Source of the DNA: Scenedesmus sp. ARA3
Taxonomy: Eukaryota; Chlorophyta; Chlorophyceae; Sphaeropleales; Scenedesmaceae
DNA length: 64,000 bases
Assembly: GCA_004335835.1 (NCBI GenBank)
Contig: RWJK01001098.1
Coordinates: 3,558-67,557, forward strand
Direction of reading: 5' to 3'
This document shows positions 2,288 to 59,381 of this stretch, piece after piece. The notes under the pieces were generated by a model. That model was given only the letters and a program-made list of their open reading frames with translations, had not been told where the DNA came from and made no database searches. The translations under genes were made by a program, and so were the position numbers. The stretch's first letter is position 1. Each line of letters starts with the position of its first letter.

Positions 2288-2400
2288 GTCCGTGAATGCT
2301 CAGGCTGCCAGGGTCCCTCAGCACAGACACCAGCAGGTAGCCATTCAGCCCCGCGATCAGCAGCGCTGTCAGCACAGCCCAAACTGCAAACATCCCCGGC
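2288..2400 (-). repeat. copy of the NRAMP last-exon end beyond the stop codon
   Basis: On the minus strand this reads as a diverged copy of the last NRAMP exon tail ([18 protein letters not shown], then RDPGSLS), about 120 bp past the true stop at 2521. It is no longer flanked by the same stop codon. It is one of the junction/terminal 'echo' copies described in the findings. Confidence 0.85.
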
Positions 2401-2520
2401 TGCACGGCTGAGCTGGTTCAATTCACGCGTGGGCGCTCAGCGGCACAAATTTGCCTCGAGAGATACCAGCAGGTAGCCGATCACGCCTCGCCTGCATCTG
2501 GGTAGCATGCCTGCCGCTGC

Positions 2521-5500
2521 TTACTTGTGCACACTGAGGCTGCCAGGGTCCCTCAGCACGGACACCAGCAGGTAGCCGTTGAGCCCTGCGATCAGCAGCG
2601 CCGTCAGCACGGCTGCGATGCTGGTGGCCAGGCTGTTGGCGTAGCGCCCCGTGAACTTGGCGCTGCTGGTGAAGTGCACCAGCGGCAGCACCGCAAAAGA
2701 CAGCTGCATGGACAGTACCACCTGCAGACACACACAAGGCGGCAACACAAAGAAATGCATGTGAACAATTGTCACGTTGCTACACAGGTTCTGCACAACA
2801 GGCCGGCGAACTTGGCGCTGCTGGTGAAGTGCACCAGCGGCAGCACCGCGAACGACAGCTGCATGGACAGCACCACCTGCACGGTGATGCAGCAGAGAGG
2901 AAAGCACGGCACATGCAGCAACAAACACGAACACACATTAGTGCCCGCCACGATGGCGCAGAGGCGTTGACATGCAACTTGCCTGAGTTGCAATTTGGTC
3001 AACAGCTGCCAGCTGAAGCTGCTGCCTTGGTTGCTCAAGCACTCAATAGCGATGAACAACGCCCCTTCTCAACAGCACATCATCTGGCACCATGCCTGAA
3101 ACTACTGCGCAGTGTTGCAACGCATGCATGAATGCATGCCGCCCCACCTGTGAAATGACGAGCAGCTGCCCCACTGCCTTGTCACCCATCACCGCAGCAA
3201 CGATGACAGCGGGGATGACGGCCAGCGCGCGCGTCAGCAGCCTCCGCATGACAGGCTTCATCTTCATCTGCAGTGCAGCAACAGCAGCAACAGTCAGCAG
3301 GATGGCACATGCGCGCGTCAGCAGCATCCGCATTGCATGCTTCATGTTCATTTGAGCTGCTGCTGCAGCAGCAGCAGCAGCGATTCATCTGAGCCGCAGC
3401 GGCAGCAGCGGCAGCAGCAGCGGAAGTAAGCAGAACGGCAAGGGCCACGCATGCCACACCTGCTGTAACCCGCAGGTGTCATCCCGAACAAAAGAATTCT
3501 GCAGAAACCAGTGGCTCATCTTCGCCTGAAAACTCAACGCATGCAAAACATTGTTTGCAATAAATTCTCAACATGGCCCACCTGCAAGAAGCCCTCCATC
3601 ACGACCTGCCCAGCTAGTGTCCCGGTCACGGTGCTGTTCTGGCCGCTGGCCAGCAGCGCCAGCGCAAAGATGATAGAAGGCCTGCCACAACCTCAGATTC
3701 AATGAAACACGCTGATTACCATAGCAGCTTCTACTGTAGGCCCTCCAACAGCCGCACCTGCAGGAAGCCCTCCATCACGACCTGCCCAGCTAATGTGCCG
3801 GTCACGGTGCTGTTCTGGCCGCTGGCCAGCAGAGCCAGCGCAAAGATGATGCAGGCTCACAACAACCCCAAAAGCCATAAACACACACAAATAAATGTGC
3901 GATACTTTGCGTAAAACCCTTCAACAGCCCCACCTGCAGGAAGCCCTCCATCACGACCTGCCCAGCTAATGTGCCGGTCACGGTGCTGTTCTGGCCGCTG
4001 GCCAGCAGCGCCAGCGCAAAGATGATGCAGGCTCAGAACAACCCCAAAAGCCATAAATACACACAAACAACTGTGCGATCCTTTGCGTTAAACCCCTTCA
4101 ACAGCCTCACCTGCAGGAAGCCCTCCATCACGACTTGCCCAGCCAGCGTGCCGGTCACTGTGCTGTTCTGGCCGCTGGCCAGCAGCGCCAGCGCAAAGAT
4201 GATGCTCGCGCCGCGCGCGCCCAGGCTGGGCGACAGCAGCTTGTACGCATCGCTGATGTCCACGCCCTCCCTGCATGACACAATAAGGTGAAGTAAAGGT
4301 GATGACAAAGAGCGACCCAGTTGATGGAAAGTGCAACAAATGAACAGCATAGACACACGCTTGTAGGCGTCACTGATGTCCACGCCCTCCCTGCAATTGA
4401 TACAATAGTGTGGGATGACGGCAATCGGTGAGACAGTGCTGCGCGGCATCGCAGGTGATGGAACAGAGCAATAAAGCTTTGGACAGCACAGACAGCAGCT
4501 TGTGGGCGCCGCTGATGTCCACGCCATCCCTGCCTGTGCTGCGGCATGCCGCGTTGGGACACTGCACCAAACAAAATATAGACGTTTGCACTGATCAGCA
4601 CTGCACACAACTGCATGTGCGCGCACCTGTGCTGGGGTGTGCCATAGTAGAAGGCCGCGCCCGACAGGATGAGGATGCTCGCATTGATCAGGAACGCAAA
4701 CAGCAGGCTGAAGGAGGAGTCCAGCGTGCCGTAGCGGATGGCCGCGCTGCGGCCCTGCGGGCTGCGGTCATAGGCGCGCGTCTGGATCACGGCTGAGTGC
4801 AGGTAGCTGCAGAGACGGCATGCAGCACAAGCAGACAGAACACACACTGTGTGAGGAGCTGCGCAGGTGTTTGCGCACAACGCGCAACACACGCTGCGGC
4901 CCTGCAGGCTGTGGTCGTAGGTGCGCGTCTGGATCACGGCCGAGTGCAGGTAGCTGCAGACAGCATGCAGCACAAAGCAGACAGAACACGCACTGTGTGA
5001 GGAGCTGTGCAGGTGTTTGCACACACGCTGCCGCCCTGCGGGCTGCGGTCGTAGGTGCGCGTCTGGATGACGGCTGAGTGAAGGTACCTGTGAACAGAGC
5101 ACAAGATACATACAGCACACGCGCTGTGAGGCAGCTACATACAGCTGCCAGGCATGCTATGCGGCCCTGCGGGCTGCGGTCGTAGGCGCGCGTCTGGATC
5201 ACGGCCGAGTACAGGTACCTGCAGAGACAGCATGCAGCACCACGCAGACAGAACACGCACTGTGTGAGGAGCTGTGCAGGTGTTTGCACACAACACGCAA
5301 CACGCGCTGCGGTCCTGCGGGCTGCGGTCGTAGGCGCGCGTCTGGATGACGGCTGAGTGAAGGTAGCTGTGAACAGAGCACAAAAGACATTCAACACACG
5401 CGCTGTGAGGCAGCTACATACAGCTGCCAGGCATGCTATGCGGCCCTGCGGGCTGCAATCGTAGGCGCGCGTCTGGATGACGGCAGAGTGCAGATACTTG

Positions 5501-8127
5501 TGTGCACAGGCCAGCCCGCGTTGTACAATATCACACGGCTGTGCATCACGCGTCAGTTGTACAACACGCGCCTGCATGACGGCCAAGTGCAGGTAGCTGT
5601 GCACACAAACCACAAGCCACAAAGAACACACGGTGTGCAGAAGCGATGTGACAGCAGTGCTGCTGTCACAAATGCATGCAAGTATGGATTAGTGCCAAAT
5701 ACAGGTGACCACAGCAGCCTGCAAAAAAACAGCGCACAGGAGCAGCGCACACACTACCTGCCGAGCACAGAAAACACAGTACATATACACACTCGCAGGT
5801 TGTGCGGCATGACTGCTGCGCCCATGATGCCGATGGTGATGTACAGCAGTGCCACACCGCAACCAAACAGCGCAAACCACCTGCTTGTACAACATCACCT
5901 CAACATCATCACATACACACACTCACAGGTTGTGCGGCATGACGGTTGCGCCCATGATGCCTATGGCGATGTACAGCATGTCGGGGTTGGTGAACAGCTC
6001 GCGGCTGGGCACCAGGCCGCGGCCCACGTCCAGCCAGGCCGGCTGCGCCAGCGCCATCTCGTACACAAAGCTGCAACAACGGCAGAGCAGAGAAGGTAGC
6101 AGGCAGTAGAAGCGTAAGGAGTTGAGCGGATGACAGAACAGGTGACAGATCGGCTGGGCACCAGGCCGCGGCCCACGTCCAGCCACGCCGGCTGCGCCAG
6201 CGCCATCTCGTACACGAAGCTGCAGCAGCAGGCACAGCGCGCAGCACCAGGATTGATGATTGCAGCCTGAACAGCAGTTGTGAAAGAACAGGTGCTGAAA
6301 CAGCGCCGGCGCTATCTCGTACAGAAAGTTGCAAACAACAGGTGCAGCCGCAAGCGGAGGTAGCAGGCAGAGTAGGGCGGTTGAAACCAGGTGGCAGGCC
6401 ATCTGCGCCAGCGCCATCTCGTACACAAAGCTGCCCCTCAAGCAGCATCACCAGCGCCACATCAGCAGTCAAAACACACCCTTGCCCTTGCTGCTGCCAA
6501 ACAAGGAAGTGACAACTGCCTTCTTTCACACCTCCCATACCTAACAGTGTTAATAGTGCACAAAATCAAATTCAAAACAACCGCTCACCAGGAGAAGATG
6601 ACCAGGATGAGCAGGATGACAAAATACCCCAGCCAGCTTACACTACAACCTTGAGCTGCTGCCATACGATGTTCAACAGTCAAAACAATCTGCCAACGCG
6701 TAACAGCAGAGAGCACTCACCAGGAGAAGATGACCAGGATGAGCAGGATAACAAAGCCCTCCAGCCACCTGAAGCCGCGCCCCTCCAGCAGCATCACCAG
6801 CGCCACGTCAGCGATCGTGACCAGCACGCCAGCCCACAGCGGCATGCCAAACAGCAGCTGCAGCGCCACGGCAGCGCCGATGACCTCCGCCAGGTCACAC
6901 GCGCAGATGGCGATCTCGGCCATGATCCACAGCGGGATGTTGACCCACCTGCGCACAGCATGTGCGGAGTAACAGGCAGGAGAGCAAGTTGAATTGTGAT
7001 GTGACGCACAAACACGGCCACACAACAAGTGGTGCAGCACAGGGGCAACTGCACACAAGCCCACGCTATGTGTGCTGCATGCCCAGCCGACTGCACAGCG
7101 CTGCAGGAGAAGTTAGTACAAGGCACCAGCCATACGCACCTTGGGTAGGCGTCCCTGCAGGCCTGCGCCAGGTCCCTGCCGCTGGCCACGCCCAGCTTTA
7201 GCGCCAGGTGCTGCAAAAACATGGCTGCAATGCTGCTCAGCAGGATGACAAACAGCAGGCTGTAGCCGAAGCGTGCACCACCTGCCAGGCCTGTGGCCCA
7301 GTTGCCGGGGTCCCTGCAGGAACAGGTGAGAGCAGCAGCATGGATGCAGCAGCAGGTGGCGTCAGGAGGCTACAGAGGTGCTAGATGGCTGCAAGCGTGG
7401 GGGCAGGTGATGCAGCGCAAGCAGGCACTGTTGGAGGCAGCGAGCGGGTGGCAGCATACGGCACAGCAGTGCCTGCCGGGCATGAGGGCAAGAGCCAGAA
7501 GCACAAGACACGTTGTGTGGTCCTGCAGGAGCTGCCGGTCCAGGACTGGCAGCATCCCCTGCTGTCCGTCTTTCCACAAGGTGAGGCACGGTTCCAATGC
7601 CACAAGATATGGCTTCCAGGAGAACTATTTTTACTATGGTCTACTGCTGTTAGCCCTTGTACTGCCCTGATGCAGGCGTCATTGCCCTCAGCTGGGGCTG
7701 CCGGGTACCCACTGTGCTCACAGCATCCTCGGCTGTCCGCTGCTGTAGCCCTTGTATTGCCCTAGTCCAGGTTCCTGCTCCTGTCCACACTGCTGGTGGT
7801 GCTGCAAATCAACTTTGCTCACATGTATCCGACAGAGATGATGGTGCCGCATCCTGCAAACGCCAGCAGCATGCGCCAGGGAGTGGGCTTTGCAGGAACC
7901 TTGATGGTTGCGTGAGCCTCAGGCAGAGACAGCGCGCAGCGCGCAGTGTGCCACCCTGTCTGCAACAGCATCTCATCCTCCTCGTCCGCTGCCGCTGAAT
8001 CCGGTCCTGCAGGAGCTGCTGGTGCTGCTTCAGGGACCTTGCAGGGCACAGCAGCAGGTGCTGCTGCATCCTGCACCACCACGTCCAACACGCTGGCCGT
8101 GTCTTGCGCTGCTGCAAAGCCTGTCAT
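2521..8127 (-). CDS. NRAMP: NRAMP-family divalent metal transporter
   Basis: Proton-coupled importer of Mn2+/Fe2+-type ions, placed in plasma or organelle membrane. Exons: 8127-7823, 7313-7140, 6948-6721, 6070-5927, 4806-4627, 4270-4111, 3267-3148, 2721-2521; all phases agree and give 503 residues, normal for the family. Two family signatures are intact: DPGN at about 103-106 (transmembrane helix 1) and MPHN at about 280-283 (helix 6), which carry the metal ligands. Other recognisable blocks are [18 protein letters not shown] (helix 3-4), [18 protein letters not shown] (helix 8) and [19 protein letters not shown] (helix 9). The first 80 residues are a low-complexity cytoplasmic leader. The protein ends soon after helix 11, as many NRAMPs do. 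Introns are filled with partial copies of flanking exon ends, so most open frames here are decoys. Start chosen as the first ATG opening the exon that leads into helix 1. Confidence 0.93.
2806..2880 (-). repeat. NRAMP exon 8 start echo
   Basis: Minus-strand copy of the last 3' splice site and first ~70 bases of exon 8 ([22 protein letters not shown]), lying upstream of the real exon. It keeps a CAG acceptor but diverges after SSAKFAG and runs into unrelated sequence. Confidence 0.88.
3299..3352 (-). repeat. NRAMP exon 7 start echo
   Basis: Diverged copy of the exon 7 start ([17 protein letters not shown] against [17 protein letters not shown]) just upstream of the true exon, after a pyrimidine/CTG-rich stretch. 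Confidence 0.8.
3582..4026 (-). repeat. three NRAMP exon 6 end echoes
   Basis: Three tandem copies (about 4026-3931, 3852-3759, 3674-3582) of the last ~95 bases of exon 6, encoding [20 protein letters not shown] and VVMEGFLQ, each followed by a GTGGG donor. Between them lie copies of the same intron start. They sit downstream of the real exon 6 in transcription. Divergence among copies is low, a few per cent, suggesting recent expansion. Confidence 0.92.
4362..4605 (-). repeat. NRAMP exon 6 start echoes, one fused to an exon 5 end echo
   Basis: Two copies of the exon 6 acceptor plus start ([14 protein letters not shown]) lie at about 4394-4362 and 4533-4500. The second directly abuts a diverged copy of the exon 5 end (about 4605-4534; [11 protein letters not shown], then MPQHR against TPQHR), with only four bases between the two exon-derived parts. 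Confidence 0.85.
4889..5605 (-). repeat. six-copy array of NRAMP exon 5 start echoes
   Basis: Six partial copies of the exon 5 start ([19 protein letters not shown]) precede the true exon, at roughly 4955, 5092, 5220, 5368, 5500 and 5600. The repeat unit is about 130-150 bp: ~60 bp exon-derived sequence plus ~80 bp intron-derived spacer. Most copies keep an AG immediately before the exon-like part. The copy farthest from the exon is the most degraded. Confidence 0.93.
5803..5855 (-). repeat. NRAMP exon 4 end echo
   Basis: Copy of the exon 4 end ([13 protein letters not shown]) lying downstream of the true exon; the donor is changed from GTGAGT to GCGAGT. Confidence 0.88.
6152..6434 (-). repeat. 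three NRAMP exon 4 start echoes
   Basis: Copies of the exon 4 acceptor and start ([19 protein letters not shown]) at about 6224-6152, 6332-6299 and 6434-6399, of decreasing similarity with distance from the true exon at 6070. All keep an AG just before the exon-like sequence. Confidence 0.88.
6424..6632 (-). repeat. NRAMP exon 3 internal and end echoes
   Basis: 6632-6586 copies the exon 3 end with its donor ([10 protein letters not shown] followed by GTGAGC). A further partial copy of the exon 3 interior ([14 protein letters not shown]) lies at about 6462-6424, directly against an exon 4 start echo. Confidence 0.78.
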
Positions 8128-12715: not shown

Positions 12716-12751
<36 letters not shown>

Positions 12752-15877: not shown

Positions 15878-15900
15878 CTACCGCCGCTGCTTCTTCCGAG

Positions 15901-15936
<36 letters not shown>

Positions 15937-16642
15937 GCCGCCCGCCCTCCTGCGCCTTCATGTACAGCACGTCCGTCCTAATAACATACTTCGCTCCCTG
16001 AAGCACCGCGCTGCCCTCGTGCACCAAGCTCCCGAGTGTGCCGCCATGCGGGAAGACCATCACGTTGCCAGTCACCGGCTGCACGCCGCGCGCATCCAGG
16101 CAGCCCTCCTGCAGGCATAAATCAGCACACGTATGGAACCAGGCTGTGTACTCAAACACCTTGTTGCGCAGTCCAAGCGCATCGAGGCAGCCCTGCTGCA
16201 AGTGATCACATGTGCACAATAAGTCAGTAAAAAGCACGCCAAGACATGCGCATGCTGGCTGCCGCCGTGCGGGAAGACCATCACGTTGCCTGTCACCGGC
16301 TGCACACCGCGTGCAGCCAGGCAGCCCTCCTGCAGGCGTAAGTATGCAGACATGGCAGTCAATCGATATGCAGACAAGCATACACCCCGGCTGCACCCGG
16401 CGCATGCAAGCAGCCGTCCTGCAAGTGAGCACATGTGTACACAGTGTCTGTTAGTCAGTTGCATGTTGAACAAGACATGTGCATCCAGGCTGCCGCCGTG
16501 CGGGAAGACCATCACGTTGCCCGGCTGCATGCCTGCTGTTGTACACACCTGCTCTGTGCTTGCGGTGTAGTAGGTGGTGGCGCCGCCCTCAAAGTCATCG
16601 TTGAGGTACACCAGGAACGTCACCCGGCTCCAGCGGTCACCT

Positions 16643-27671: not shown

Positions 27672-27901
27672 TTAGCTTGGAGGGAAGCCACCCAGCAGGT
27701 AGATTGTCCCAAACAGCGTCACCGTTGTCACTGCACCCATGCACACCAAAAAGATGCCAAACGCCCACTTCTTGTCGATGCCCAGCCTCTCCCCGAGCCC
27801 TGTGATGGCCTTGTCAAAGGCAGGCGCCAGCGCCAGTGCAAGGCTGATGCGCAGCGGGCGCGCAAAGTTTTGCAGCGTCCACAGCCCTGCAGCAGCAGCA
27901 T

Positions 27902-27938: not shown

Positions 27939-28020
27939 TGAGGAGGCAAGAGGCAGGCGCCAGCGCAAGGCTGATGCGCAGCGGGCGCGCAAAGTTCTGC
28001 AGCGTCCACAGCCCTGCAGC

Positions 28021-28056
<36 letters not shown>

Positions 28057-31000
28057 TCAGGAGGCAGGGGCCAGCGCCAGGGCAAGGCTGATGCGCAGCG
28101 GGCGCGCAAAGGTTTGCAACGTCCACAGCCCTGCAGCGGCAGCAGCAGCAGCAGCAACAGAAGTCAGGAGGCAGGCACCAGCACCAGGCCTGCATTGTCC
28201 TGCAAGCATTGGTCATGCGAGCATTGTCCTGCAAGCACAGCCGCTGGGTCAATATGCTTGCACCGGCAGACCACAGCACCATGCTGCAGTAGCAGCATGG
28301 TGGTGTAGAGCTGAGGACACGCGGTAATGCACCTAGGCCTAGGCCAGCAGACCACAGCACTCTCGCTCGCTTACAGGCAATCTGCAATCACTTTCAGCAG
28401 CAGGCAGCACCAGCTGTAAGCAGCAGTGACCACACGCACCTGCATAGAAGGCCAGGAACACCTTCCACTGCCCAGGGGCTGTACAGAAGCCATCCTGGTA
28501 CAAGCAAACAAGCAGTGCGAAAGCTCTAAACAGCTGTGACCACGCACCTGCATAGAAGGCCAGGAACACCTTCCACTGCCCGGGTGCGGTGGGCGCCACT
28601 CCGTACTTCTTCACGAATGCGATCCACGCCGCACCCAGCGCCGTGCCGTAGTTGAGGTTAGAGATGAAGCCATAGCTGCGGCAGCAGCAGACACAACAGC
28701 TTCAGCCCTGCTTACGTGTTGTAAAATGGAACCTCTCCATCTACAACACACGGTCTCACTGTCAACAACAGTGCATTGAATGGAATGGCGGAGTGTGCCG
28801 TAGTTGAGGCTGGAGATGAGGCAGCAGCTGTGGCAGCAAACATAGCACAGTGCATTGAACAAAGCAGCAGATTGTGGCGTGGTTGAGGTTGGAGATGAAG
28901 CCGTAGCTGCTGCAGCAGCTGACACAACACACAGTTTCACTGTCAACAACAGCGTGCATTAAATGGAATGGCGGAGTGTGCCGTAGTTGGGGCTAAAACA
29001 AGGCAGCAGCTGTGGCAGCAAACATAGCACAGTGTGTTGAATAGAGCGGCAGATTGTGCTGTAGTTGAGGTTGGAGATGAAGCCATAGCTGCGGCAGCAG
29101 ACACAACACGCTGACATGTCAAACTGGTGATCCTCTGTCACAATAAAGTGCATGAATAGATTGGCAGAGTGTGCCATAGATGAGGTTGAAAATTTTTGCT
29201 GCAGCTGCGGCAGCAAAACCAGCACAATGCAGCTAGCCGCAGCGCGGCAAATGGCATGCAACTTGTGTTGCGCAAGCGTACGCAGGCGCACGGCGCATCA
29301 CCATTGGGCAGGTGCCTGTGCCTGGCGTCATGCTGTATGTGTTACAGCCGTGCGCTGCTGTCTCCATGCCACACAGCGGTACGAGCACACACAAGAAGCC
29401 GTCACACACACGCATCTAGCTGGCAAGCCTGCAGCTACCGTGCTGCTTGTCTCTTCCATCAGTTGCTGCTGCAGTTCATGGTCACTGCTGTTGTGACATG
29501 TCCTGCTGCAGCTGCTGACCCCAAACCATTTGTATGCTTGCTATGGCATGCATCTTGCTTGCCAGATGCCAATCAATTACTGTTGAGTCTATATAACATG
29601 AACCACACTGTCAACTGTTGCAGAGCATGTGCTGCCTTGGTGTACACTTGCTGAGTGGACTGTGAACAGCAGCCAAGCTCCTTGCAGCTGCCTGTCGGTG
29701 CAGCAACGCAGCTGCTTGGGGAGAGCAACAAGCTTACAGCAAGCGTACAGCAAGCTTACCACAAGCTTAGAGCAGGCTTACAGCAAGCATACAAGCAAGC
29801 TTGCAACAAGCTTACTGGGGAGAGCCACAAGCCTACCACAAGCTTGCAGCAAGCTATCACGCGCCTACAGCAGGCTGACAGGAAGTGTACAGCAAGCCTA
29901 AAAGCGTACAACAAGCTTTTTCCCGCCCCCACAAAGGCTCCCATGGCCAGTGCCTTGATTCGCTCCTTGTCCAGGCCATCCACAAACTTACAGCGACCTA
30001 AAGCAAGCCTGAAGCAAGCTTACAGCAAGCTTACCGCAAGCTTATCTCTGGCCCCACCTTGCAAAGGCTCCCATGCCCAGTGCCTTCATCTGCTCCTTGT
30101 CCATCAACATCAAGCCTAAAGCAAGCTTACAGCCAGCTTTTCGCTGCCCACCTTGCAACCTATGGCCAATTCCTCCTGCCAGCCCCCCTCCCCCCTCCTC
30201 ACCTGGCAAAGGCTCCCATGCCCAGTGCCTTGATGCGCTCCTTGTCCAGGTTATCCACAAACTTACAGCAAGCCTAAAGCAAGCCTGAAGCAAGCTTACA
30301 GCAAACCTAAAGTAGGCCTAAAGCAAGCTTACAGCAAGCTTAAAGTAGGCCTAAAGCAAGCTTACAGCAAGCTTAAAGTAGGCCTAAAGCAAGCTTACAG
30401 CAAGCTTATTCCCCCCACCCACCTTGCGAAGGCTCCCATGCCCAGTGCCTTGATGCGCTCCTTGTCCAGGCCATCACCTGGGGGGCAGGCAGGGAGCGGG
30501 AGCAGCAACAGCAGCAGCAGCAGCAGCAAACAATGATCGTACACAGCATTTGTGTCGAAACCCTAGCTGCCAAGTAGACTCGTAGCTGTGCTGCTCAGCG
30601 CGGATGTGACCACTGCTTGTGTTGTGTTGCGGTGTGCTGCGTGGCAGCTGCTGGATGTTAAGAACAGAGATGGACTGGAGGTAGCATGCAGCAGCCCTGA
30701 TTTGACGCAACAACCCCTTGAGCTAAGTGCCCAACAGCCTGACACCTGACAGGAGCGCATGCATGCATGTGCCTTGCCAATGTGGCGTACGATGCCAGGA
30801 ATATTGTACAGTATGCATGCATGGTATGATCATTTTGCAGGGGGCGCAAGCACTCACCAACAAAGAAGTACTTGACTGAGCCCCAGAAACCCCGCTTCGG
30901 CTTCTGCTCACTGCTGCTGCCAGCTGCACCCGGCGCCGCGCCACTGCTGCTGCTGCTGCTGCTGTTGGGATCGTCTGCTGGCAGGCCTGCTGCTGCGCTT

Positions 31001-31511: not shown

Positions 31512-34349
31512 ATGCAGCACCTGCAGCAAGTACAAACCCTCCACCTGCAACACACCTGCAGCAGTAGACACGTGTGCAGTATGCAGCCAACTCGCAGCTT
31601 AGGAACCAATAAAGCTACCAGAAAAACACGCAGAACAAGCCTCCGTGTGCAAGCACATTTACAGCCAGAGCAAGTGCAGCAGCAGCAACATCATCAGCAG
31701 CAGCAACAACTGCAGCAGCAGCAGCAGAAAGCAGCACTCCCACACAGCAGCAGGCGCGGGCTGTTTGCAGCAGCAGGGGCAGCTGCAGCAGTACCAGTAG
31801 CATTGCAGCTGCTGCAACCGCCCGCTGCCAGTGCATACATTGTAGATGAGACAGTAGCGCAATCTGTATTTGCACTAGCTGCGCGCAGCGTAGTATCCAT
31901 CAATGATTACAAGCAGCAAGGAGGCGCTGAAATCTTTGAGGGTGTTGGCACTGGCTTTGTATGGGACAAGTACGGCCACGGTGAGTGCAATTGCTTGCAG
32001 GAAATGCATGCAAGTGCTTGCAGGAAATGTACGCAGGTGCTTGCAAGGAACACGCGTGCTCCAACCATGGACACCCTGCGCCTTTCACAGAAATAGTTCA
32101 AAGTGACATCAATCAAAGCATAAGTTCATGCAGCGTTAATGGCATGCTGGCGTTGTGCTCAAGCCACGGCCTTACAGATGCAACGCAGTGCTGCGCTGCT
32201 CTGTTCTGTGCTGCCTGCTGTAGTTGTGACCAACTACCATGTGGTATCCAAGTATGTGCTGGACAAGAGTGGCCAGCAGGTGCGATGCTGCTTGTGGACA
32301 GTGGCAGTTCCGCGGCCCTGAACTGAGCAGCAACAGCGGTGAACTATCTAGCGGTCATGCAGCAGCAATGCTGCTGCAGAAGCAGCAGCTCCAGCAGATT
32401 GGCAGCAGCGGACTATCTGGCCATGCAGCTTCTGTGAGGCGGCGTGATGTAGCATGTAAAAGCAGGCCCCCACGGCCGGATGGAATTCTCGACATCAGCT
32501 GCACACGGCAAATGCCTCAACAAGCTCTTTTGCGCTGGCTGCTGCTCACGTCAAAGCCACCACACTCTGCTGTCATGTAGATGACCTTGTGCACCGGCAC
32601 AAGGCCAGCAGATGCTGCGGGGAAGTGCGACGTTTGGCGCGTTGCTGCCGTGCCACAACATCAGCAGCTGCTGCGGATGCTGCTGCTGGTGCTGCGGATG
32701 CTGCTGCTGCTGCAGGTGGTGAAGGTGGTGCTGGATGACGGCAGCGGCGGCAGCCAGCCCTACGTGGCTCGCGTGGTGGGCACGGACGCCATGCATGACC
32801 TGGCGGTGCTGCAGGTGCGGCCTTTGCACAGATAACAGAGAACATGGATTGGCACGGTTGCGCCACCTAGAACGCTGCCTTCTCACCGAAAAGTGAATGC
32901 CTCAGCATGATGAAGTAGCAAGCATTGGTGGCAGCAACATCTGCTGCCGCAGAAGTGCACTTCAAGCTGTTGAGACAGCCACATACGGGCGGCAGCAGCC
33001 AGCCCTACGTGGCTCGCGTGGTGGGCACGGACGCCATGCATGACCTGGCAGTGCTGCAGGTGCGAGCATGCACATACAACACTTCAAACAATGGCGTTCA
33101 ACCTTTTTAACAAGCGATTGCCTAAGTATGATCAAGTAGCAAGCATCGGTGGCAGCAACGCTCTGCTGCCGCTGAAATGCACGTTGAGCTTTTAAATACA
33201 GCCATGTACGGGCGCCAGCAGCCAGCCCTACGTGGCCCGGGTGGTGGGCACGGACGCCATGCATGACCTGGCAGTGCTGCAGGTGCGAAGGGGCGACGCA
33301 AATCTGTACGAAGCTTTTACAGCACCAGCATCAATATCCCAACATAATCAGTACATGCCGCACGTTGTCTGCTGTAGCATTGCACAAGTTGCACAACTCG
33401 ACACGACTGCACCGCCTCTGAACTCAATTACTGCCTTCCAACCTCCCTTGTGCGTGAATGCCCAGACATTGAAGTTGCAGGCAAATGCGGCAGCAATGCT
33501 GCCACTGAAGTACACTTTGACTCGGCTATCCAACAGATACTGGCAGGGCGTTAGTCTGAGTGCTAGCGGCAGGGCAACACATACAATCCACAAACATGCA
33601 GTTGGTGCCAGGCCTTGAACCTGTGCCATTGTGGCTGAATGCCTATGCCTGACTGACGCTGCTGCTGCTGCTGCTGCTGCTGCAGGTTGACGCGCCCAAG
33701 GACCAGCTGGTGCCGATTCGTATGGGCACATCCGGCGACCTCAAAGTGAGGCCGGGCCTCCTGTCAAACCTGTGACAAGATATTAACTAGCAACTAGGCC
33801 TTGTGCATAGTACCCTCCTGCAAGACAAAGTATAGCAACACCAGTGCATCCGGCGATCTAATGAGCACATCAGGCACTCTCATGTGAATGTGAAGTAGCA
33901 TGCGTACATAAAAGGTTGCTGCAGCACAAGTGTACCAACACCAGCGTGGGCAATTCTTTGGCAGGCAGTCGGCCGAGACATGTCACTGACGTAGTACTGA
34001 CATGTTACTGACATGTTACAAACCTGCAGGTGGGCCAGGCGGTGTATGCCGTGGGCAATCCTTACGGCTTGGACAAGACGCTGACAGCAGGCGTGGTCAG
34101 TGGCCTCAACCGCACCATCCCGGCGCCAACAGGCACACGCATCTACGGCGCAATTCAGGTGCGCCTGCTGCTACGCTACCACGCTGCTGCTGCTGCTCCT
34201 GGCTATTGCTGCTGCTGCTGCTGCTGTTCCAGAATGACGCACCAATCACTCCTGCTCCTGTCCTTTGACGTAAGCTGCATGCAGACTGGTGTTGATGCAG
34301 ACCAGCACAACAGGGCAACAGCGGTGGCCCCATGCTGGACTCCTCACCC

Positions 34350-34425
<76 letters not shown>

Positions 34426-34426
34426 N

Positions 34427-34492
<66 letters not shown>

Positions 34493-35260
34493 AGAGTGAC
34501 GCGTCGGTCAACCAGGGCAACAGCGGCGGGCCCATGCTGGACTCCTTTGCCAGGCTGGTGGGCGTCAACACGGCCAGCTTCACACGCGCCAACACGGTGA
34601 GGGTTCTGTTATTCTATGTTATGTTAATCTATGCCCGGTTACGTTATACTGAAGTGTACAGCCAGCCTCACGCGCGCCAACACGGTTAGGCCGGCTGCGA
34701 ACTTGCATGCTTAGTTTGTAACTGCAGCTGCGCTGCTGCAATTCAGATGCATTGGGCAGAGGGTTGCATGCTGCCTGCCACTCACTAGCGCAGTGTGCTC
34801 GCAACAGCTGATGTGCTGGCAAAGCCACTGATGTGCTAGTAGCAATCATTCATGCCAACACACAGTTGTGAAGTTCACTGAGTGAACTGTGGCATGCAGC
34901 TCAAGTAGTATCGAAAGGCGCATCATGTGCTGCAATGTATGCATTTTGTGCAGTAGCTGCACAGCTAGCCGACAATGCACGCAGTAATGCGGCTGGTGGT
35001 GGTGCTGCTGCTGCTGCCAGGGCCGTGGCAGCGGCGTGAACTTTGCGCTGCGTGCCAACCTGGTGCATTTTGTGCAGTAGCTGCACAGCTAACCAACAAT
35101 GCATACACTAGTGCTGCCGCGCTGGTGCCGCTGCTGCTGCTGCTGCTGCCAGGGCCGTGCCAGCGGCGTGAACTTTGCGCTGCGTGCCAACCTGGTGCAT
35201 TTTGTGCAGTAGCTGCACAGCTAACCAACAATGCATACACTAGTGCTGCCGCGCTGGTGC

Positions 35261-35297
<37 letters not shown>

Positions 35298-35402
35298 GCC
35301 GTGCCAGCGGCGTGAATGCCGCGCTGCCTGCTGACCTGGTGCATTTTGTGCAGCAGCTGCACAGCTGGCCAACAATGCACGCACTAATGCTGCTGGTGCT
35401 GG

Positions 35403-35659: not shown

Positions 35660-36150
35660 GGCTGGCAGCAGAGATTGTGCCCAACCTCATCTTGCAGCAG
35701 CAGTGGCGGCAGGCAAGTGCGTGCCGCGAGGCTGATCTGCTTGCTGCCGTGCACCCCGCAGCAGCGCTGGGGTGGGCACTGCCAGGCTGGCAGCAGGGTT
35801 GGGCCGGACCGCATTGTGAACAGCACTGCAGGAGGCAAATGGGTTCAGCGAGGCTGATCTGCTTGCTGCTGTGACAGCTGCAGCAGGACTGTGGCTGGCA
35901 CTGCCAGGCTGGCAGCATCGGTTGTTCCCAACTTGATCGTGTATGGCACGGCAGCTGGCAAGGGCGTGCGGCGAGGCTGAGCTGCCTGCTGCCTTGCAAA
36001 GTGTGCTAGTAGCAGCATCAGCCGCAGCTGTGCAGCAGCAGCAGCAGCAGAGCCATGCACACTGCAGCAGCGCTGGGAGTTGCAGCAGTGGTTCCTTTAA
36101 CCTCATTGTGTGCGGCACAACAGCAGGCAGGGGTGTGTGGCAAGGCGGCG
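35660..36150 (+). repeat. DEG5 C-terminus echoes beyond the stop codon
   Basis: Downstream of the stop at 35552 are copies of the exon 7 end: about 35668-35695 (EIVPNLI-like), 35916-35981 ([15 protein letters not shown], then RRG and TGA, near identical and with its own stop) and a weaker one at 36094-36150. They lie in the probable 3' untranslated region or flank. Confidence 0.83.
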
Positions 36151-43364: not shown

Positions 43365-46300
43365 TTAGTGCGCCGCCACCGCGTTTCCTGCTGCCGGCAG
43401 TGCATCTGCTGCTGCCACAACCGCGTGGCGCTTGGCGCCCGGCGTGGGGCTGGGTGAAGCCATGGGCTTGCGGCCGATGCGCTCCAGCAGCGCATTAAGC
43501 TTCACCTCAAGGGTGCTAAGGTCATCGTACATTGCCTCCAGGTCAAAGCCCTGCAATCAATCAATCAGTTAATCAATCAGTTAATCAGTCGATCAACCAG
43601 GCAGCAGCAGCAGCACCAGCAGCAGCACCAGCAGCTTCACCTCCAGCATATCCATGCTGAAACAAAAATTGCAGGTCAAACACTTTTTGATCACTGCGTA
43701 ACACAAACATTAACGCATATTTGAGATGCCGCCTCACCTCCCACGCGTAGCACTGCTCCTTGAAGGTCTTGTTGGCCACCCACACCGCGCTGTTGCACTT
43801 GAAGCCGCTGCCAAAGGCCAGCTGCAGCACCTTGTCGCCCTTGGTCACGCCCCGGAAGTGCTCAATGAACGCCAGCACATACCTGCGGCAGCAGCAGCAG
43901 CAGCAGTAGCAGCAGCAGCAACGCTCCCAGAGTCAGCTGACGGCTTCCACACACAGCACACAGGTAAGCATCACAAGGCAAGCAATACGCCGGTAACCAT
44001 AGCAGCTGATGTTGGCATTTTAGCACTTTACTACAACTGGCAGCTGATCGTATCATGCCACACCTAATGCAGCCAAGGCAGCATGCTAGAGCCGCCAGCA
44101 TGCCAGCCGGGCACCAGACGCTGCTGCTGCTGACGTTGCCGTAGCGGTACAGCGCCGCCCTGGAGGGCTAAACCTGAAGCCTGCTCTGCATTGCTTGGTA
44201 TGTAACACAGTTGGAACACAAAAATATCACGGTTGTAACACGAACATAACACGCACCAGACGCTGCTGCTGCTGACGTTGCCGTAGCGGTACAGTGCCGC
44301 CCTGGAGGGCTCCACGAAGTCGTTGCTGAGCCCCAGCTCCTTCTGGATGGCATCAATCACGCCGCGGCCCCCTGCATGCATTCAAAAGTGTACAGAGATG
44401 TGTCAGCATGTCAAATCAATGGTTGTGTGCTCAGCCCCAGTTCCATCTGGATGGGCATCAATCACACCACGCGCGCCTGCATTGATGTGGCAGCAGCAAA
44501 GACACGTCAGATATCGGTGATTGAGTGCGCAGTATCAGCTTTATGTGGATGCCGTTGATGTGCATCACCAGTCCCAAAGCTCAGGTCACACAGCAAACAA
44601 GGGCACCAGCAGGGTTGCCGTCTCACCTGTGTGGATGCAGATGTGCTGTGCTGCCACCTGGAAGTCAGGGATGTACGGCGCCAGCTTCATGCCCAGGTCA
44701 TGAAAGCAACCATACATACAAACGCATGTAGCAGCAGTGCTGCCGTCTCACCTGTGTGAATGCGGATGTGCTGCGCTGCCACCTGGAAGTCAGGGATGTA
44801 TGACATAATGTGCATCCATAGATCATGACTAGGATTGAAAAACTATAAATGCAGGCAGCAGCAGCAGCGCTGTCGCACCTGTGTGGATGCAGATGTGCTG
44901 TGCTGCCACCTGGAAGTCTGGAATGTACGGCATTATGCGCATCCCTAGATCATGAAATTAGCCACCGAATTACACGCAGGTAGCAGCAGCAGTGTCGTCT
45001 CACCTGTGTGGATGCAGATGTGCTGTGCTGCCACCTGGAAGTCTGGGATGTATGGCGCCAGCTTCATACCCAGCAGCTTCCGTGCAGCCATGTTTGCGCC
45101 AAACACCAGCATCTCGCTCATGGGCAGCACACGGGGGCCCAGGCTGGTGATGTTGTCCTTCAGCGCCTTGCCTGAAAGTGACAACCAAAGTAACAGATGT
45201 GACAGTGTTATAACAATGTGTGAAGAGTGCATGCTCGCTCATGGGCAGCACGCGGGGGCCCAGGCTGGTGATGTTGTCCTTCAGCGCCTTGCCTGCAGCA
45301 GCAAAGCGACATCGGACCCAGCAGCAGCAGCAGAACCAGCGCCTGGATAACAACATTGTGCTTGACCCAGTTCCCTGCAAGTTCTCAACTGCTGCACAGC
45401 AAACCCACAAGCTGCTGTCCTTCCTGCACCAGTGACCACACGCACCTGCGATCTTCATTAGCTCCTTGCTCAGCTTCATGCAGCAGCAGCAGCAGCAGAC
45501 ACCAGTCGCCACACGCAACTGCACCGCCCAGCACACACGCACCTGCAATCTTCATCAGCTCCTTGCTCAGCGCCACACAGCAGCACCACCACCACCAAAT
45601 AACAGCATCACTAAACAACAACCCCCTTCCCAAGCAATAAGCAACATCTTTCTCCTATCTGCACCTGCGATCTTCATGCGCTCCTTGCTCAGCTTGACGC
45701 AGCAGCAGCAGCAGCGACAACAATGCATCGCACCTGCAATCTTCATGAGCTCCTTGCTCAGCTTCACGCCCCTGTTGCCCAGGCTGTCCTCCATCTCCAT
45801 CACGCAGTTGTAGCTGGTGTCGTCACCAGACAGCGTCGTGCGCACCACGCTGTCCAGACGGTACTTGGAGCGGCTGCAGATGTGATGCAGCAGCAGCAGC
45901 AGTGGGCTGTCAGCGATGCTGCATGTCATGGTGATCGTCTGCCAGCTGTCACAAACACAGCATGCCATGATGCGCAGCAACTATGGCATCGCTTTCCTGC
46001 AAGATCCTGCTGTTTCCTGCAAGGCCTTCTCCTTTCCTGCAAGCAGACATGCCTTTCCTGCAAGCGCGCCCGCCACCTCTGCACTCACCGCGCCTCGCTG
46101 CGCTTGTTGGTCATGAGCATGGCGGCGCCGCCCACGCGGAACAGCACGTTGGGGATGAGCATGGAGCGCTGCGTGCCCTTGTACATGTTCTGAGTGATAT
46201 TCTCGGTGGACACCACCAGCGCATACGTGTCGGGGTACAGCTCCAGCATCTGGCGGGCCAGGTCCACAGCAATGGGGCTGGCTGAGCAGCCCATGCCCCC

Positions 46301-47160: not shown

Positions 47161-47206
<46 letters not shown>

Positions 47207-49424: not shown

Positions 49425-52400
49425 ATGCTGAACACAAGGGCTCTCCAGCAGCCGCGGTTAGCGCATTCTCAAAGACTTGACACGATCCTTCGTCACGCAC
49501 TGCGTGTGGCTCCTAGCAGCGCCCGATGCAGCTCGACCACTCAAAGGCAGCGACAGGCAGGGCACAGCCTGGTGTGCCAAGCAGCAGCAGGAGCTGGGCC
49601 TGATCCTGCAGGCACCAAGAAGCAGCTGCCCATATTTCCGCTCAATGTTGTGGCGCTGCCTACGGCAGTGGTGCCCCTCATGATCTTTGAGGCCAGGTGC
49701 GTCCTGTGATGTAGTAGTCGAGCTGGTGCAGCACAGCAGCACCTGTTGTGGTTGAACTGGATGCTGTGCTGCTGCACAGCTACACAGCTTCAAACGCGGC
49801 ATGGCATCTACAGTGCAGTGCAAGAGATACGAAATAGCAAAACCATAGATGATGAACATGACACACTGCACTGGTGTCGTCTTGTGTGGACATGCACCTG
49901 CACATTCAGCACAGGACACCCCGGGCTCCTTGTCCATGCAGCTGCCCTCATGCTCTAAATTTTAGTAGTAAGTAGGCTACGCGTTTTGCGTGGCCTAGTA
50001 ACTACTTTCTTGCCCCTAGCATGTGCAGTGCTACAGCGAACTGGAATCACAACCGCCCGTTCCCTCTACATCTGTGCTGCTGTATGTGTGGAAGACACCT
50101 TCATTGTCCGTCGCTGCCACGGCTTCCTGTACCGCAGCACTCACTACACTGCATTGCATTGCATTGCTTGTCGAGCTTGTCGCAACTGCAATGTCGCCTG
50201 GTGTTCTGGCCTCCTTTCTGCTGCAACACAGTACAGAGCAGCGTCATCAACTTTGCAGCACTGCTTCCATGTGTCGTGCGCCTGGCTGATTGATGCACCA
50301 CGCATGCGCTGCTGCGCCCCCAACACTGCCTGGCCTGGGCTGTGCTGCTGCCACACGGCTGCGTGGCTTGTATGTAAGGCAAGCATCAATACTATCCAAA
50401 ACCGTTGGAGTAAAATCAACACCAATATATCATCAAACTCCACCACATGCTGCTGCCTGAATTGTTGTTAAACAATGATAATAACAGAATGATGAAATGA
50501 CGATCCCGCAGGTACCGCGTGCTGTTCAACACGCTGCTGGCGGGAGCAGAGAAGGTTGAGGAGGGCTTGGTTCAGGAGGACTCGCCGTTTGCAGGTGAGC
50601 CGGCAGCAGCAGCAGCAGCAGCAGTGTGGCGGCTTTCCATGCAGAGTTGTGCAGTGGAGTGAGGTGTGAGCACGGCAGCACTGACAGCTGGCAGGATGGC
50701 GGGGCAGCAGCAGCAGCCGCAGCAGCAGCGAGCACCACACGGCAGTTGCAGAACGACAGCGCCAGCAGCCATGTGTTCACATTCTCGGCGTATAAAAGCC
50801 GGTTGCACTGCGCTGCCGCTGTGCCTGCCATGTGCTGCGTGCACATGCGGAGGCTTGTGGACTCACGCAACAGCACTGGCCATGCTCTTGCCATCATCAT
50901 TCCAGCAGCTTGCATGCAGCTTGCACCTTGATGCCTACTTGCCTCGCGCGGTGCCATCCTGCTGTGGAACGCCTGGCTGAGCTGTCTCTGAGACACACAG
51001 TCAAAAAACCTCATCCTCTTGTTGCTCCCTGTCGTGTAACACGTTATTTGTATGTTACTTGCAGGCTGTTGGGGCTTTGGCGTGTGCTTTGTGGACGACA
51101 GCAACTGCATGTCAGCTATCGGCAGTGCACTTGGGATCCACAATTCCTGATCCTGTTGTTATCCTGTGTAACACCCTGTTGTATTGTATGTTACGTGCAG
51201 GCTCCCGGCGCTTCGGCATGTGCTTTGCCGATGATGTCGGCCGCATTTCGGGCATCGGCACTACACTCGAGATCCAAGACTTCCTGATCGAGTCCAGCGG
51301 GCGCATGTATGTTACTAACAAAGGCATCGAGCGCTTCAAAGTGACAAAGGTGGTCAAGCAGCAGCCGGTGCTGGTGTGTGAGGTGGAGGTGCTGCCGGAA
51401 GATGACGACCAGAGCGATGAGGTAAGCCGCAGGGTTTAGCCAACTTGGAGCTAGGGGTGGGGTTTGAAAGGCTGGGGTGGAGAGCAGGGCTTAGTGCGAT
51501 TTAGTGCTGGTGTGCGAGGTGGAGGTGCTGCCAGAAGATGATGATCAGAGCGACGAGGTAAGCCGCAGGGTTTAGCTAACTGGGAGCTAGGGTTGGGGTT
51601 TAGAGGCAGGAGTCGAGAAAAAGGGTTTAGCACAGCTGGTGTGTGAGGTGGAGGTGCTGCCTGAAGATGACGACCAGAGCGATGAGGTAAGTTGCAGGGT
51701 TGAGCTAACTGGGAGCTAGGGTTAGGCAGGGGTGGAGAGCACGGCTTAGTGCGGTTTAGTGCTGGTGTGCAAGGTGGAGGTGCTGCTAGAAGGTTATTAT
51801 CAGAGGGACGAGATAAGCCGCAGGGATTAGAACGCAGCTAGGGTTGCGGTTTAGAGGCAGGAGTAGAGAAAAATGGTTTAGCACAGCTGTTGTGTCAGGT
51901 GGAGTTGCTGCCTGAGGATGACGAACGTAGCGATGAGGGTAAGCCGCAAGCAGCAGACCTGTTGCGCACCGTGCTGCGCCTGCACCTCAAGCGCCGCACC
52001 AATCTGTACTCACTATTCTGCCCACCTGCCGACTCCTGCCTGCCTGCTTCACCTGCTTTCACCTACTTTTTCTTCGTGACAGGCCAAGGCGCTGGCAGCG
52101 CAGGTAGCAGACCTGTTCCGCAACGTGCTGCGCCTGCACCTTAAGATTGCCCGAGCCAAGCTGCGCCCGGGCGCCAGCCGAGGCTCCTCAGCGGCTGCTG
52201 AGCCACTCAACTCGGAGGCTGAGGACGAGGTTATTGAGGCGATGGAGCTCACCGAGTCGAGTCCGAGCCAGCTGTCGTACTGGATCGCGCACGCGTTCTC
52301 GGTGAGTTTGCATGCAGCTGCAGGCTGCTCGCTGGGTCTCACAGGATGCTTTGAATTAGATGTGTCGTAGGAGGTGAAGCTGTGTGTTGGGCAAAGCTGG

Positions 52401-52775: not shown

Positions 52776-52822
52776 GGGGTTAAGAAGTGTGGTGATTGCG
52801 AGGGTTTAGGCCTTTGCGCTGG

Positions 52823-53245
52823 ACGGCGTGTTTGGCGGAGGCAGCGGAGGCAGTTGCTCTTGCACTGAAGGAGCCAAGGGCGCATCCTCATCCGAGGTGC
52901 AGCCGCCGCCCGGCGGGCCCGACTAAGGGTTTAAGAAGTGGTAGTGATTGCGAGGGTTTAGGCCCTGGCGTTGGAGGGTGTTTGGCGGAGACAGCGGAGG
53001 CAGTTCCTCTTCATCCTCCACTGAAGGAGCCAAGGGAGCCTCCTCATCCGAGGTGCAGCCACCGCCCGGCGGGCCCAACTAAAGGTTTAAGTAGTGGTAG
53101 TGATCGCAGGGTTTAGGCCCTGGCGCCGGAGGGCGTGTTTGGCGGAGGCAGCGGAGGCAGTTCCTCTTCCTCCTCCTCCACTGAAGGAGCAAAGGGCGCC
53201 TCATCATCCAAGGTGCAGCCGCCGCTCAACGGGCCGGGCTGAGGG
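52823..53245 (+). repeat. three LON C-terminus echoes beyond the stop codon
   Basis: Copies of the last ~110 coding bases, ending in VQPPPGGPD plus TAA (third copy diverged to a TGA), at about 52823-52925, 52968-53083 and 53123-53242. Each is followed by a copy of the post-stop sequence, giving a ~145-bp tandem period. Confidence 0.93.
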
Positions 53246-55530
53246 GTTTAGTTGGTGATGGAACCGTGGAGGTTTATAAACCCTCACAGTTAATCAAGCC
53301 CTGGCGATGGAGGGCGTGTTAAGTGTCAGCAGGTGTTGCTTAGTTTTGCGAAGGGGCGAACCGGGGCGTGCTTGGGTATGCATGTGTGCTGGCTGCTGCT
53401 GCTTGAACTGGCAGGCCACTTTGTCCTGACCGCCACGTTTCCAAGTCGCCACAGGCTGTGCTAGTTGGTGGCTGGCCACTGCTGTTGCCCACCAAATGCT
53501 GCACCCACTGCAGCTTCACTGCACTGCAGCAGCGCCTTTGTTCTGGGCTGGCATTGAAGCGTCTGCAATCACAGCCAGTCGTTGCAGCTAGTTTTGAGTC
53601 GATCCACTCATGGAGTTCAGGGCGCACTGGATGCATTGGCGAAAGACAGTAGAGTGTCTTGGCGCGGCTGTGGGCGGTCGTGCTGGATGTGCTTTGCAGC
53701 CCTGCGTGCTTCTGGCTGTCCTGTAGTACTCAGCAGTTGACAGTGACTGCATGATGCACTAAGCTTGTGACAACTGTCGCAGCAGTGGTACAGGTGGCAC
53801 TTAATTGCTCATGGCACGATATTCAAAGTGCAACGATGGTTGCTCTGAGGCTCTGCGCAGCATGTGCACATGTACAGATGTGCGGTGCTTGGCAACTGTC
53901 GGATGTCTGTGCACACTGTGGTATGTGGCACATCACGCCTTGATGGCATCATGCCATGGCCTGTATAGAGCCATAGCTATGCCTACTGCAGTTACTCGGG
54001 CAGCTACCGCTATAACAGTACTGCCATGTGCGGCTCTCACCGGCGTGCTGCAAGCTGCCACCAGCGGCAGACAGCGGGCTTTCAACAAGTTGTTGTAACA
54101 TCTTGTTTGAGGTTTGTTTGTTTTGCGCCGCCGTTCAACGGCGGTCAGTGACCAGGCTTAGCCAGTATTATGAGTTTTAGCCAGCATGCCTGCGCAGGCT
54201 GGGTAGCCGCTACCAGACACTAGTAGTCATCATCATCATCACCAGACACTAGTAGTGTCTTGTCTGTCATATGTGTTGTCTGTACTACAGGCACTGCCTG
54301 TTGGTGTCAGCTGAACTGGTAACCGTACCAATAGCCCACATCACCATTGCTTCAAAGTTTTCGAATAGTTACACATTTGCGTCCTTACATAACATGTACA
54401 AGGTACGTCACGACATGAGCAGTTACTGAATGCTTGGTTCGTTGCACATAGATGAGAGTGTAATACACATGCACATGCTGATGTGATACGACACAGCTGA
54501 TGCCAGCCACTGCTGCTGTACCACTGGTTGAACGGTTTTGAACTGCACAACCTGGCAAGTGGCTAGCCAGCTGCAAGCTGTGCGTCATTGCCAAAGCATT
54601 GTCGCCAACAAATCATGCCATCAAGATCTTGATCAAGAGGCCAAGCAGCAGCTACTCAAAGGCCAGTGCATCCAATGACCCCACTGCATGCACTGCAGGC
54701 ACGTGTGAACAGCAACCGAACACACATGCTGAGGTGAGTGACACTCGCTTCATCATGACTCGTGGCAACAGTGATTCAATCCCACAAGAACGCCACCAAT
54801 GAGGGTGCAGGTGTTCACACGGGGCCCAACTTGACACGAACAGAAGACCTCTTGCTAACCAAGTCCAGTGCTCCAACTAAGACAAAACAAAAAGGTGTGA
54901 CGCTTGCAGGACATCAACAGTCCCTGCTGCAGGCGCCCATTCAGCAGCAGCGGTCCACCACCTAGGCGGCACCACCCGCTAGCAGAGCTAGCGAAGGAGG
55001 CTGCCTCACTCGACCTTGCCCACTGCCCCACACGACTTGGGCCGTACACATGCCCACCAAGCAAGCAAGCACAGCGCAACGAGCATCCTAGTACGTTCTC
55101 AGCAGTAACAGCGCCCTCACAGCCCATCCTGCCTGCAGCAGCTGGTGCTATGAATGCCGAATTTTCCACTAGATCACAGCAGGCGCTGCATGCGCGCAGC
55201 ACAAGCAGTGACTAAGCATACGCACTGCGGGCAGCCAGGCATGTTGCTGCGCTTGTCAAGGGGTATCATACCAACCGCAGAAGCAGCAGCTGCTGCTTCC
55301 AGGATGTATGAGCAAGAGTTGCTGGTAACCCCGCCTCGCTGCTAAACCTGACCCACGAAAGCTGCTGCACAACCCAGCATCTGCACGCCCACATTGGCCC
55401 TTCAGCAGCAGCTGCAGCACTATCCATGTGCCTGCGCTGCTGCAGGCCAGTTGCTGCAGCTCCCACCGCTGCTAGCAGCAGCAGTAAAAGCAGCAACTTG
55501 CAGGTGCTCTCCTCATGCGGCAACTGCACC
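53246..55530. other. intergenic stretch without a supported gene
   Basis: Begins with one more weak trace of the LON tail near 53300 (GATGGAGGGCGTGTT). A short direct repeat ACCAGACACTAGTAGT occurs at about 54211 and 54240. No exon could be supported. Confidence 0.45.
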
Positions 55531-59249: not shown

Positions 59250-59304
59250 TAATACACTGTCAGCAGCTGTCTGGCGGCTTTCTGAGTTGCAGTTTGTATA
59301 CATG

Positions 59305-59381
59305 GCCTCAGACAAAGATGGTGTTTGGATGCCTTTTGCATGCGACAAGGACAACCTGTTCATCCTGCGCAAGCTGTAGTG
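59305..59381 (+). repeat. fibrillin C-terminus echo beyond the stop codon
   Basis: Copy of DKDNLFILRKL plus TAG at about 59342-59379, after the true stop at 59249, with surrounding post-stop sequence also duplicated (again near 59425). Confidence 0.88.

Follow-up and report, generated by a model that had tools for sequence, protein, structure and literature searches.

Why do the introns of a green alga hold partial copies of the ends of its own exons? The question is raised by a stretch of 64,000 nucleotides from Scenedesmus sp. ARA3, hereafter the window (C779:3558-67557 of a genome assembly of 87.3 Mb in 1567 contigs), for which a preliminary description had reported copies of exon starts and exon ends in the introns of several genes. 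We found that these tandem copies of exon edges are real and occur in many genes on many contigs. Moreover, the apparently untranslated copies are under amino-acid constraint, a surprising element that the preliminary description had missed. The reading towards which we lean is that tandem duplication recurs at exon edges and that later exchange spreads the purifying selection on the exon to its copies; the phenomenon is largely accounted for by known processes in an unusual combination.

Self-BLAST of the window gave 95 direct repeat pairs against one inverted pair, and the members of 91 of the 95 start no more than 6 kb apart. A second pass with a low-complexity filter, limited to members of at least 28 bases that lie within 1.2 kb of each other, returned 94 pairs, which form 43 clusters. 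A first sample of other contigs, 39 merged stretches (148 kb) fetched around Mito_carr and Cpn60_TCP1 exons, held 227 direct against 2 inverted pairs when direct pairs were counted up to 2.5 kb apart and low-complexity pairs were filtered out. Eight of these 39 gene stretches, such as C837:14588-19820, C456:20511-23863, C36:7740-10979 and five more, hold no local direct repeat. A stretch of 10 kb chosen without regard to gene family gave 16 direct pairs and no inverted one. With kinesin, tRNA-synthetase and ATPase genes added, the sample comprised 61 stretches (219 kb) and 192 Pfam-anchored rows, four of them without a matching predicted exon; the gene stretches fetched are only part of the listed Pfam hits. 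In this anchored set the real exon is the row that adjoins the remainder of the exon, and at least ten copy-like Pfam rows (three PF00118, two PF00122 and five PF00133) as well as several Mito_carr rows were left out before counting. The gene predictor was trained on Pfam-matched exons (donor CAG/GTGAGT, acceptor CTGCAG/G), and exons were kept only if Pfam-supported. The predominance of direct repeats in the window, searches with independent proteins (see below) and the many genes on other contigs bear out the claim that exon-end copies in introns are real and belong to a long-running genome process of tandem duplication at exon edges.

Two window genes were examined by tblastn with proteins independent of their own gene models, taking rows on the strand and in the region of the gene. 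The exons of the NRAMP gene (minus strand) match Tetradesmus obliquus OEZ86_004166 (P0020) in eight tblastn blocks at 84-100%, with mismatches mostly where the ends of the blocks overhang, and the 24 rows comprised 8 real exons, 15 extra copies and one chance hit. Upstream of the real last exon (2524-2733) lies an exon-start copy at 2802..2879 (self-BLAST and tblastn), which over 23 codons shows 3 synonymous and no nonsynonymous differences. Downstream of the stop codon of the same exon, a match at 2292..2462 (tblastn with P0020) holds a copy of the C-terminal coding end (proper, about 2299-2378; 7 synonymous and no nonsynonymous differences over 26 codons), and a further weak terminal-end copy was matched by tblastn at 2058-2114. 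The exon at 4111-4272 has three exon-end copies at 3579..4050 with a period of about 177 bp (self-BLAST and tblastn), the FLQ copies, which differ from it only synonymously, by 5, 6 and 6 changes over 31 codons each, and two exon-start copies at 4361..4536, one at 4390 and the other at 4531 (E 0.3). In addition, self-BLAST and tblastn revealed an array of exon-start copies at 4893..5502 for the exon 4626-4805 and, for the exon 5927-6069, an exon-end copy at 5781..5849 and exon-start copies (FVYEMALAQ...) at 6144..6434, whereas the exon-end copy of the exon 6721-6948, at 6584..6638, came from self-BLAST. All of these lie on the minus strand. In the open reading frame (ORF) P0023 of a relative, the exon start corresponding to that of 5927-6069 is copied, too. 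The protein models P0019 and P0020 omit the copies.

The Deg-type protease gene (plus strand) matches OEZ86_004161 and OEZ85_002190, and the 20 tblastn rows with P0042 comprised 7 real exons, 11 extra copies and 2 low-complexity rows. Judging by the NRAMP and Deg matches, the window probably belongs to T. obliquus or to a strain very near it. Two exon-end copies (32991..33285) follow the real exon end at 32815, and three exon-start copies (35021..35341) precede the real last exon (35442-35549), both sets being found by self-BLAST and tblastn. Copies of the C-terminal coding end lie beyond the stop codon at 35660..36146 (four tblastn rows, three of them weak); the copy at 35903 shows 6 synonymous and no nonsynonymous differences, and the one at 35662 shows 5 of each. 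In these counts the reading frame of two exon-end copies of the gene was off by one base, so that nonsynonymous differences are overcounted there (the junction total is still 0.16), and the row at 35804 was aligned over 9 bases only. The T. obliquus model P0040, on a contig of 6.2 Mb, includes one copy of the 32991..33285 type that differs at one residue from that of the window; P0041 and P0042 omit the copies. These three models of one gene differ by an included exon copy or by an extra leucine-rich stretch, and gene annotation has apparently been confused by the copies.

The position of the copies follows a simple rule. In the NRAMP and Deg genes, 24 of the 26 copies are exon edges, one (34311) is near an exon start and one (6431-6475) is exon-interior; all 25 edge or near-edge copies lie on the side given in the preliminary description, start copies upstream and end copies downstream, although for 7 of the 26 the match is weak (E 0.08 to 7). 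Among the Pfam-anchored junctions outside the window, 43 of 189 acceptors and 35 of 185 donors (78 of 374 in all) have at least one copy, and the pairs lie upstream in 69 of 70 acceptor cases and downstream in 68 of 69 donor cases (137/139). No special process is needed for this rule, because it follows from tandem duplication across the edge and from loss of the duplications that break the message. The splice motif is mostly retained: AG is intact in 57 of 67 acceptor copies, and of 66 donor copies 53 have GT and 8 have GC. Thus, the direction and the accompanying AG or GT reported in the preliminary description stand, and its statement that every copy spans a splice junction does not hold in general. 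Besides the exon part, at least 15 bases of the intron side are aligned in 77 of 133 copies (33/67 acceptor, 44/66 donor); in the other 56, about half, only the exon side and a few intron bases align, and of 18 copies whose exon part has an identity of at least 95%, 9 have fewer than 25 aligned intron bases. Moreover, the NRAMP, Deg and fibrillin-like genes of the window have coding-end copies past the stop codon, showing that a splice site is not required.

The nearest copy is 81-156 bp away at 59 of the 78 junctions (for acceptors 92-155 bp, in 37 of 43 cases; for donors 81-156 bp, in 22 of 35) and 175-380 bp away at the remainder. At 74 of the 78 junctions no more than 0.63 of the unit is exon sequence, as would be expected if a working splice site had to fit into the intron part. 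Within exons, repeat coverage is 0.178 at the ends and falls to about 0.1 deeper. The copies also agree with the earlier claims that introns are lengthened and splice sites multiplied. Introns with arrays have a mean length of 671 bp (n=29), against 284 bp for the others (n=71), and make up 49% of the intron bases in this sample of 100 introns; the median scores of 65 acceptor and 65 donor copies (6.17 and 6.16) are those of strong splice-site-like sequences, compared with 5.98 and 7.20 for the real acceptors and donors. Portions of a published comparison give a mean intron of 462 bp for T. obliquus and of 230, 302 and 284 bp for three other Sphaeropleales (PMC5966456).

The amino-acid constraint is seen in several comparisons. 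The ratio of nonsynonymous to synonymous substitution rates (dN/dS) between exon and copy was 0.23 for the 78 nearest copies, 0.18 for the 76 that remain when two copies inside another anchored exon are removed, and 0.26 when only the 41 copies clear of predicted exons are taken; simulation of a neutral copy next to a constrained exon gave 0.54-0.56. Between copies, the same two being excluded, dN/dS was 0.207 (confidence interval 0.156-0.281; 91 pairs at 32 junctions), where 1 is expected for neutral sequence, and the same pairs read in the wrong frames gave 1.28-1.59, the wrong-frame values as a whole being 1.28-1.94. A neutrally decaying, dead duplicate does not fit the copy-copy value, which is not near 1. 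Third-position transversions between copies occurred at 13 of 539 two-fold sites versus 90 of 777 four-fold sites, and this rarity at two-fold sites indicates that amino acids are what is kept. Base-context mutation bias was rejected as the source of the third-position differences, the rate ratios within classes of base and next base being 4.05 and 3.06. The two well-aligned copies beyond a stop codon, those at 2299-2378 in NRAMP and 35903 in Deg, are constrained as well. Stops were found in 4 of 1664 codons of the copies, against a mean of 11 in simulation, and at least one copy read has an extra base. The arrays at C855:32169 and C1184:9496 combine a dS near 0.8 with a dN/dS near 0.15. A six-copy array at C855:30394-33567 (L036) alternates between two copy types, one long and strictly conserved, the other short and degraded, hinting at duplication of a two-unit block.

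How can copies that appear not to be translated keep their amino-acid meaning? The variants shared among them do not fit a tree. In 13 arrays, four-gamete incompatibility was found for 42 of 95 site pairs in the exon part and 165 of 490 in the intron part (misalignment could inflate the latter), and coalescent trees simulated without exchange gave a mean of 0.034, with 95% of the values up to 0.16. In forward simulations, interallelic conversion at Nc 1-3 gave a dN/dS of 0.15-0.43. Conversion within one chromosome was rejected as the cause of the low dN/dS, the simulated values being 0.36-0.69. From these patterns we infer that exchange is the cause of the constraint. Short tandem duplications straddling an exon edge, with steps mostly of about 80-160 bp, would arise repeatedly and would persist where they leave the message as it is. 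The copy continuous with the remainder of the exon would stay functional, and the remaining copies would fall into the intron or, at a last exon, past the stop codon. Exchange among copies by gene conversion or unequal crossing over, probably between alleles too, would pass exon sequence to the copies and back, so that purifying selection on the exon reaches the exon part and the splice motif of the copies and the intron part, being free of constraint, decays. In sum, introns would become longer. This sequence of duplication and exchange is, in our judgment, the probable explanation, by a slight inclination only. More tentatively, introns and 3' flanks may hold a reserve of exon ends under coding selection without translation, a template bank for the neighbouring exon, because frequent exchange with the working exon would eventually expose every copy to selection.

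Several observations weigh against duplication followed by exchange. The constraint is uneven: the terminal Deg copy at 35662 has as many nonsynonymous as synonymous differences, and copy-copy dN/dS is at least 0.5 (0.5-0.65) at 4 of 31 evaluable junctions, a six-copy array at C1032:29587 giving 0.60. A star tree with recurrent mutation also gives a high incompatibility (0.59-0.62), though with too few informative sites (29 and 10, against 99 and 48 observed). The forward simulation was small and noisy, with six replicates per setting; a dN/dS near 0.2 was reached solely under interallelic conversion at Nc of 3, and the no-conversion control, for which about 0.5 was expected, came out at 0.31 and 0.50. 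Moreover, the simulated dS was 1.1-1.8 times the synonymous diversity over Nc 1-3, so the observed dS of 0.29 means that the conversion model needs, and assumes, an allelic diversity near 0.2. Such a high diversity is plausible only, given that a related, likely diploid Scenedesmus has alternate haplotype contigs according to parts of its report (PMC7955037) and that the DOE0152z assembly is of double size (208 Mb against about 109 Mb between T. obliquus strains; PMC5552973). Finally, noncoding repeats are scarce far from predicted exons, which plain random duplication does not predict: the covered noncoding positions in the window are 0 of 12,539 beyond 800 bp, 433 of 9,821 at 400-800 bp and 21-27% nearer, and those of the 39 other stretches are 178 of 13,718 beyond 800 bp, figures that serve as background only since the predicted exons used for distance and cluster placement include some copies.

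This scarcity favours the alternative that exon edges are mutational hot spots, where splicing, transcription or local DNA structure triggers duplication. The preliminary description had likewise proposed that duplication is seeded at exon-intron borders. Among 100 introns between two Pfam-anchored exons, 71 are free of repeats and the others hold 37 edge clusters and 4 internal ones, whereas a simulation that applied random tandem duplication to the clean introns, allowing for decay and for equal detection, put 59% of the clusters at edges (p=1e-5). Also, the units are roughly centred on the junction (exon part per unit against uniform, Kolmogorov-Smirnov p about 1e-5 for each edge type), and clusters touch a predicted exon in 41 of 43 cases in the window (random, 55-66%) and 95 of 110 elsewhere (random, 64-70%), although these placements, like the distances, rest on a predictor that labels some copies as exons. 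On the other hand, preserved exon halves keep edge copies recognisable far longer than internal ones and longer than in the simulation, and the excess is weak when clusters are matched for age by a noncoding identity of at least 0.8 (12 edge against 3 internal, p=0.08) and moderate for single-pair clusters (18 against 4, p=0.02). Centring is expected if the intron half must contain a working splice site, and the ends at stop codons bear the same copies with no splice site, so the edge excess is not splice-specific. Thus, non-random placement holds as an overall excess that weakens once age is matched, and seeding at the borders is not established. A moderate edge excess may remain, and we consider hot spots an unlikely explanation of the copies.

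A less probable alternative is that the copies are used, that is, that alternative splicing into translated messages keeps their amino-acid meaning and their splice sites. It would account for the constraint between copies and for splice motifs about as strong as the real ones, the AG or GT/GC being intact in 118 of 133 copies against about 108 expected from the identity of the exon part, and P0040 does include one copy. However, no recurrent donor or acceptor motif was seen at the inner ends of 34 donor and 42 acceptor copies inspected by eye and unscored. The steps of 80-165 bp leave remainders of 0, 1 and 2 in 15, 27 and 18 acceptor and 16, 13 and 15 donor cases; since they are mostly not multiples of three, inclusion would usually break the frame, and a preference for frame-preserving unit lengths was not seen. 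Recursive splicing through exon starts that begin with GT finds no general GT start in the six arrays read. The stops and the extra base in copies, the constraint on two copies beyond stop codons and the absence of copies from the Deg models P0041 and P0042 and the NRAMP models P0019 and P0020 also speak against use. We therefore regard translation of the copies as rather improbable, and exchange fits their amino-acid constraint better. As for an assembly artefact that joined divergent haplotypes out of register at exon edges, the copies do resemble divergent functional alleles in their low dN/dS, and the haplotype contigs and double-size assembly mentioned above make such haplotypes plausible, but this is very hard to believe because two copies or more, and as many as six, occur at 32 of 76 junctions, which is more than two haplotypes could supply, because exon interiors, which an artefact would not respect, are depleted of repeats, because the ORFs P0003 and P0023 of relatives contain exon-start copies, and because the copy in P0040, on a 6.2 Mb contig and hence in another assembly, confirms one array independently, as protein rather than DNA.

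Other genes of the window have similar copies. On the minus strand, self-BLAST gave exon-start copies at 16260..16533 for the predicted real exon 15882-16108 of a 2OG-Fe(II)-oxygenase-like gene, whose exon is present once in the relative P0011 and has an exon-start copy in the relative's ORF P0003, and others at 27944..28188, upstream of the predicted exon 27723-27886. On the same strand, an FAE1/type III polyketide-synthase-like gene has an exon-end copy at 44111..44169 (98% over 59 bp; predicted real exon 44257-44371) and an exon-end array at 44602..44931, downstream of the predicted exon 45004-45171, and an exon-start copy lies at 45229..45295 (97% over 67 bp; intron side unaligned in self-BLAST). 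On the plus strand, self-BLAST gave exon-end arrays at 51504..51948 for the predicted exon 51201-51421 of a LON-substrate-binding-domain gene and at 52816..53251 for the predicted exon 52551-52761. In the fibrillin-like gene, a copy of a segment with the terminal coding end and stop codon lies at 59345..59464 on the plus strand, beyond the predicted last exon (59139-59249), and pairs with 59215-59334.

Repeats of other kinds are also present. A dense array at 29717-30475, with units of 11, 33 and 99 bp (CAAGCTTACAG type), has no confident exon nearby, so tandem duplication here is not confined to exon edges; this region has short dispersed matches elsewhere in the genome. A tandem repeat with a period of about 182 bp at 28743-29229 also has no confident exon. 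A long CTG/leucine-type triplet run with one undetermined codon lies at 34351-34492, and CAG/CTG runs are many throughout the window.

If duplication with exchange is right, short tandem duplication filtered by splicing explains intron lengthening in one algal lineage. P0040 suggests that sequences resembling strong splice sites would mislead gene annotation. Coding constraint at positions that apparently are not translated would call into question whether a low dN/dS proves translation. Moreover, exchange between exons and intronic copies becomes directly testable.

No paper on genome-wide exon-edge copies was found in the literature searched, most subscription journals lying outside the search. 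Among known systems, introner elements, which also change intron content genome-wide, are dispersed families. Unlike them, the algal copies derive from the adjacent exon, as in the 91 of 95 direct window pairs within 6 kb; the other 4 pairs lie farther apart, and one genome search with 1 kb gave many short dispersed matches. Another likeness is the RdRp gene of potato, in which, as far as the consulted sections of its description tell, one event of tandem duplication across an intron-exon boundary produced a new spliced intron (PMC4974935). As in that gene, the duplication in the alga crosses the boundary and the splice signals are copied along. In potato, however, the single event yielded a new intron from a donor inside the copied exon part, whereas the alga shows events by the dozen, frequently in arrays, with existing introns lengthened and the copies omitted from most of the protein models inspected. 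The Rogers-type tandem genomic duplication of an AGGT exon segment, as outlined in the same sections (PMC4974935), likewise touches exon sequence, but the algal unit often includes intron and the real splice site. No recurrent Rogers-type AG/GT was seen by eye at the inner edges of 76 copies, with no systematic search of interior AGGT. Tandem repeats in concerted evolution change together through gene conversion or unequal exchange. The variant sharing among the algal copies, which does not follow a tree, resembles this process. Here, unlike in such repeats, a functional exon contains one copy while the rest lie in introns or beyond a stop codon, and coding constraint thus appears in noncoding positions.

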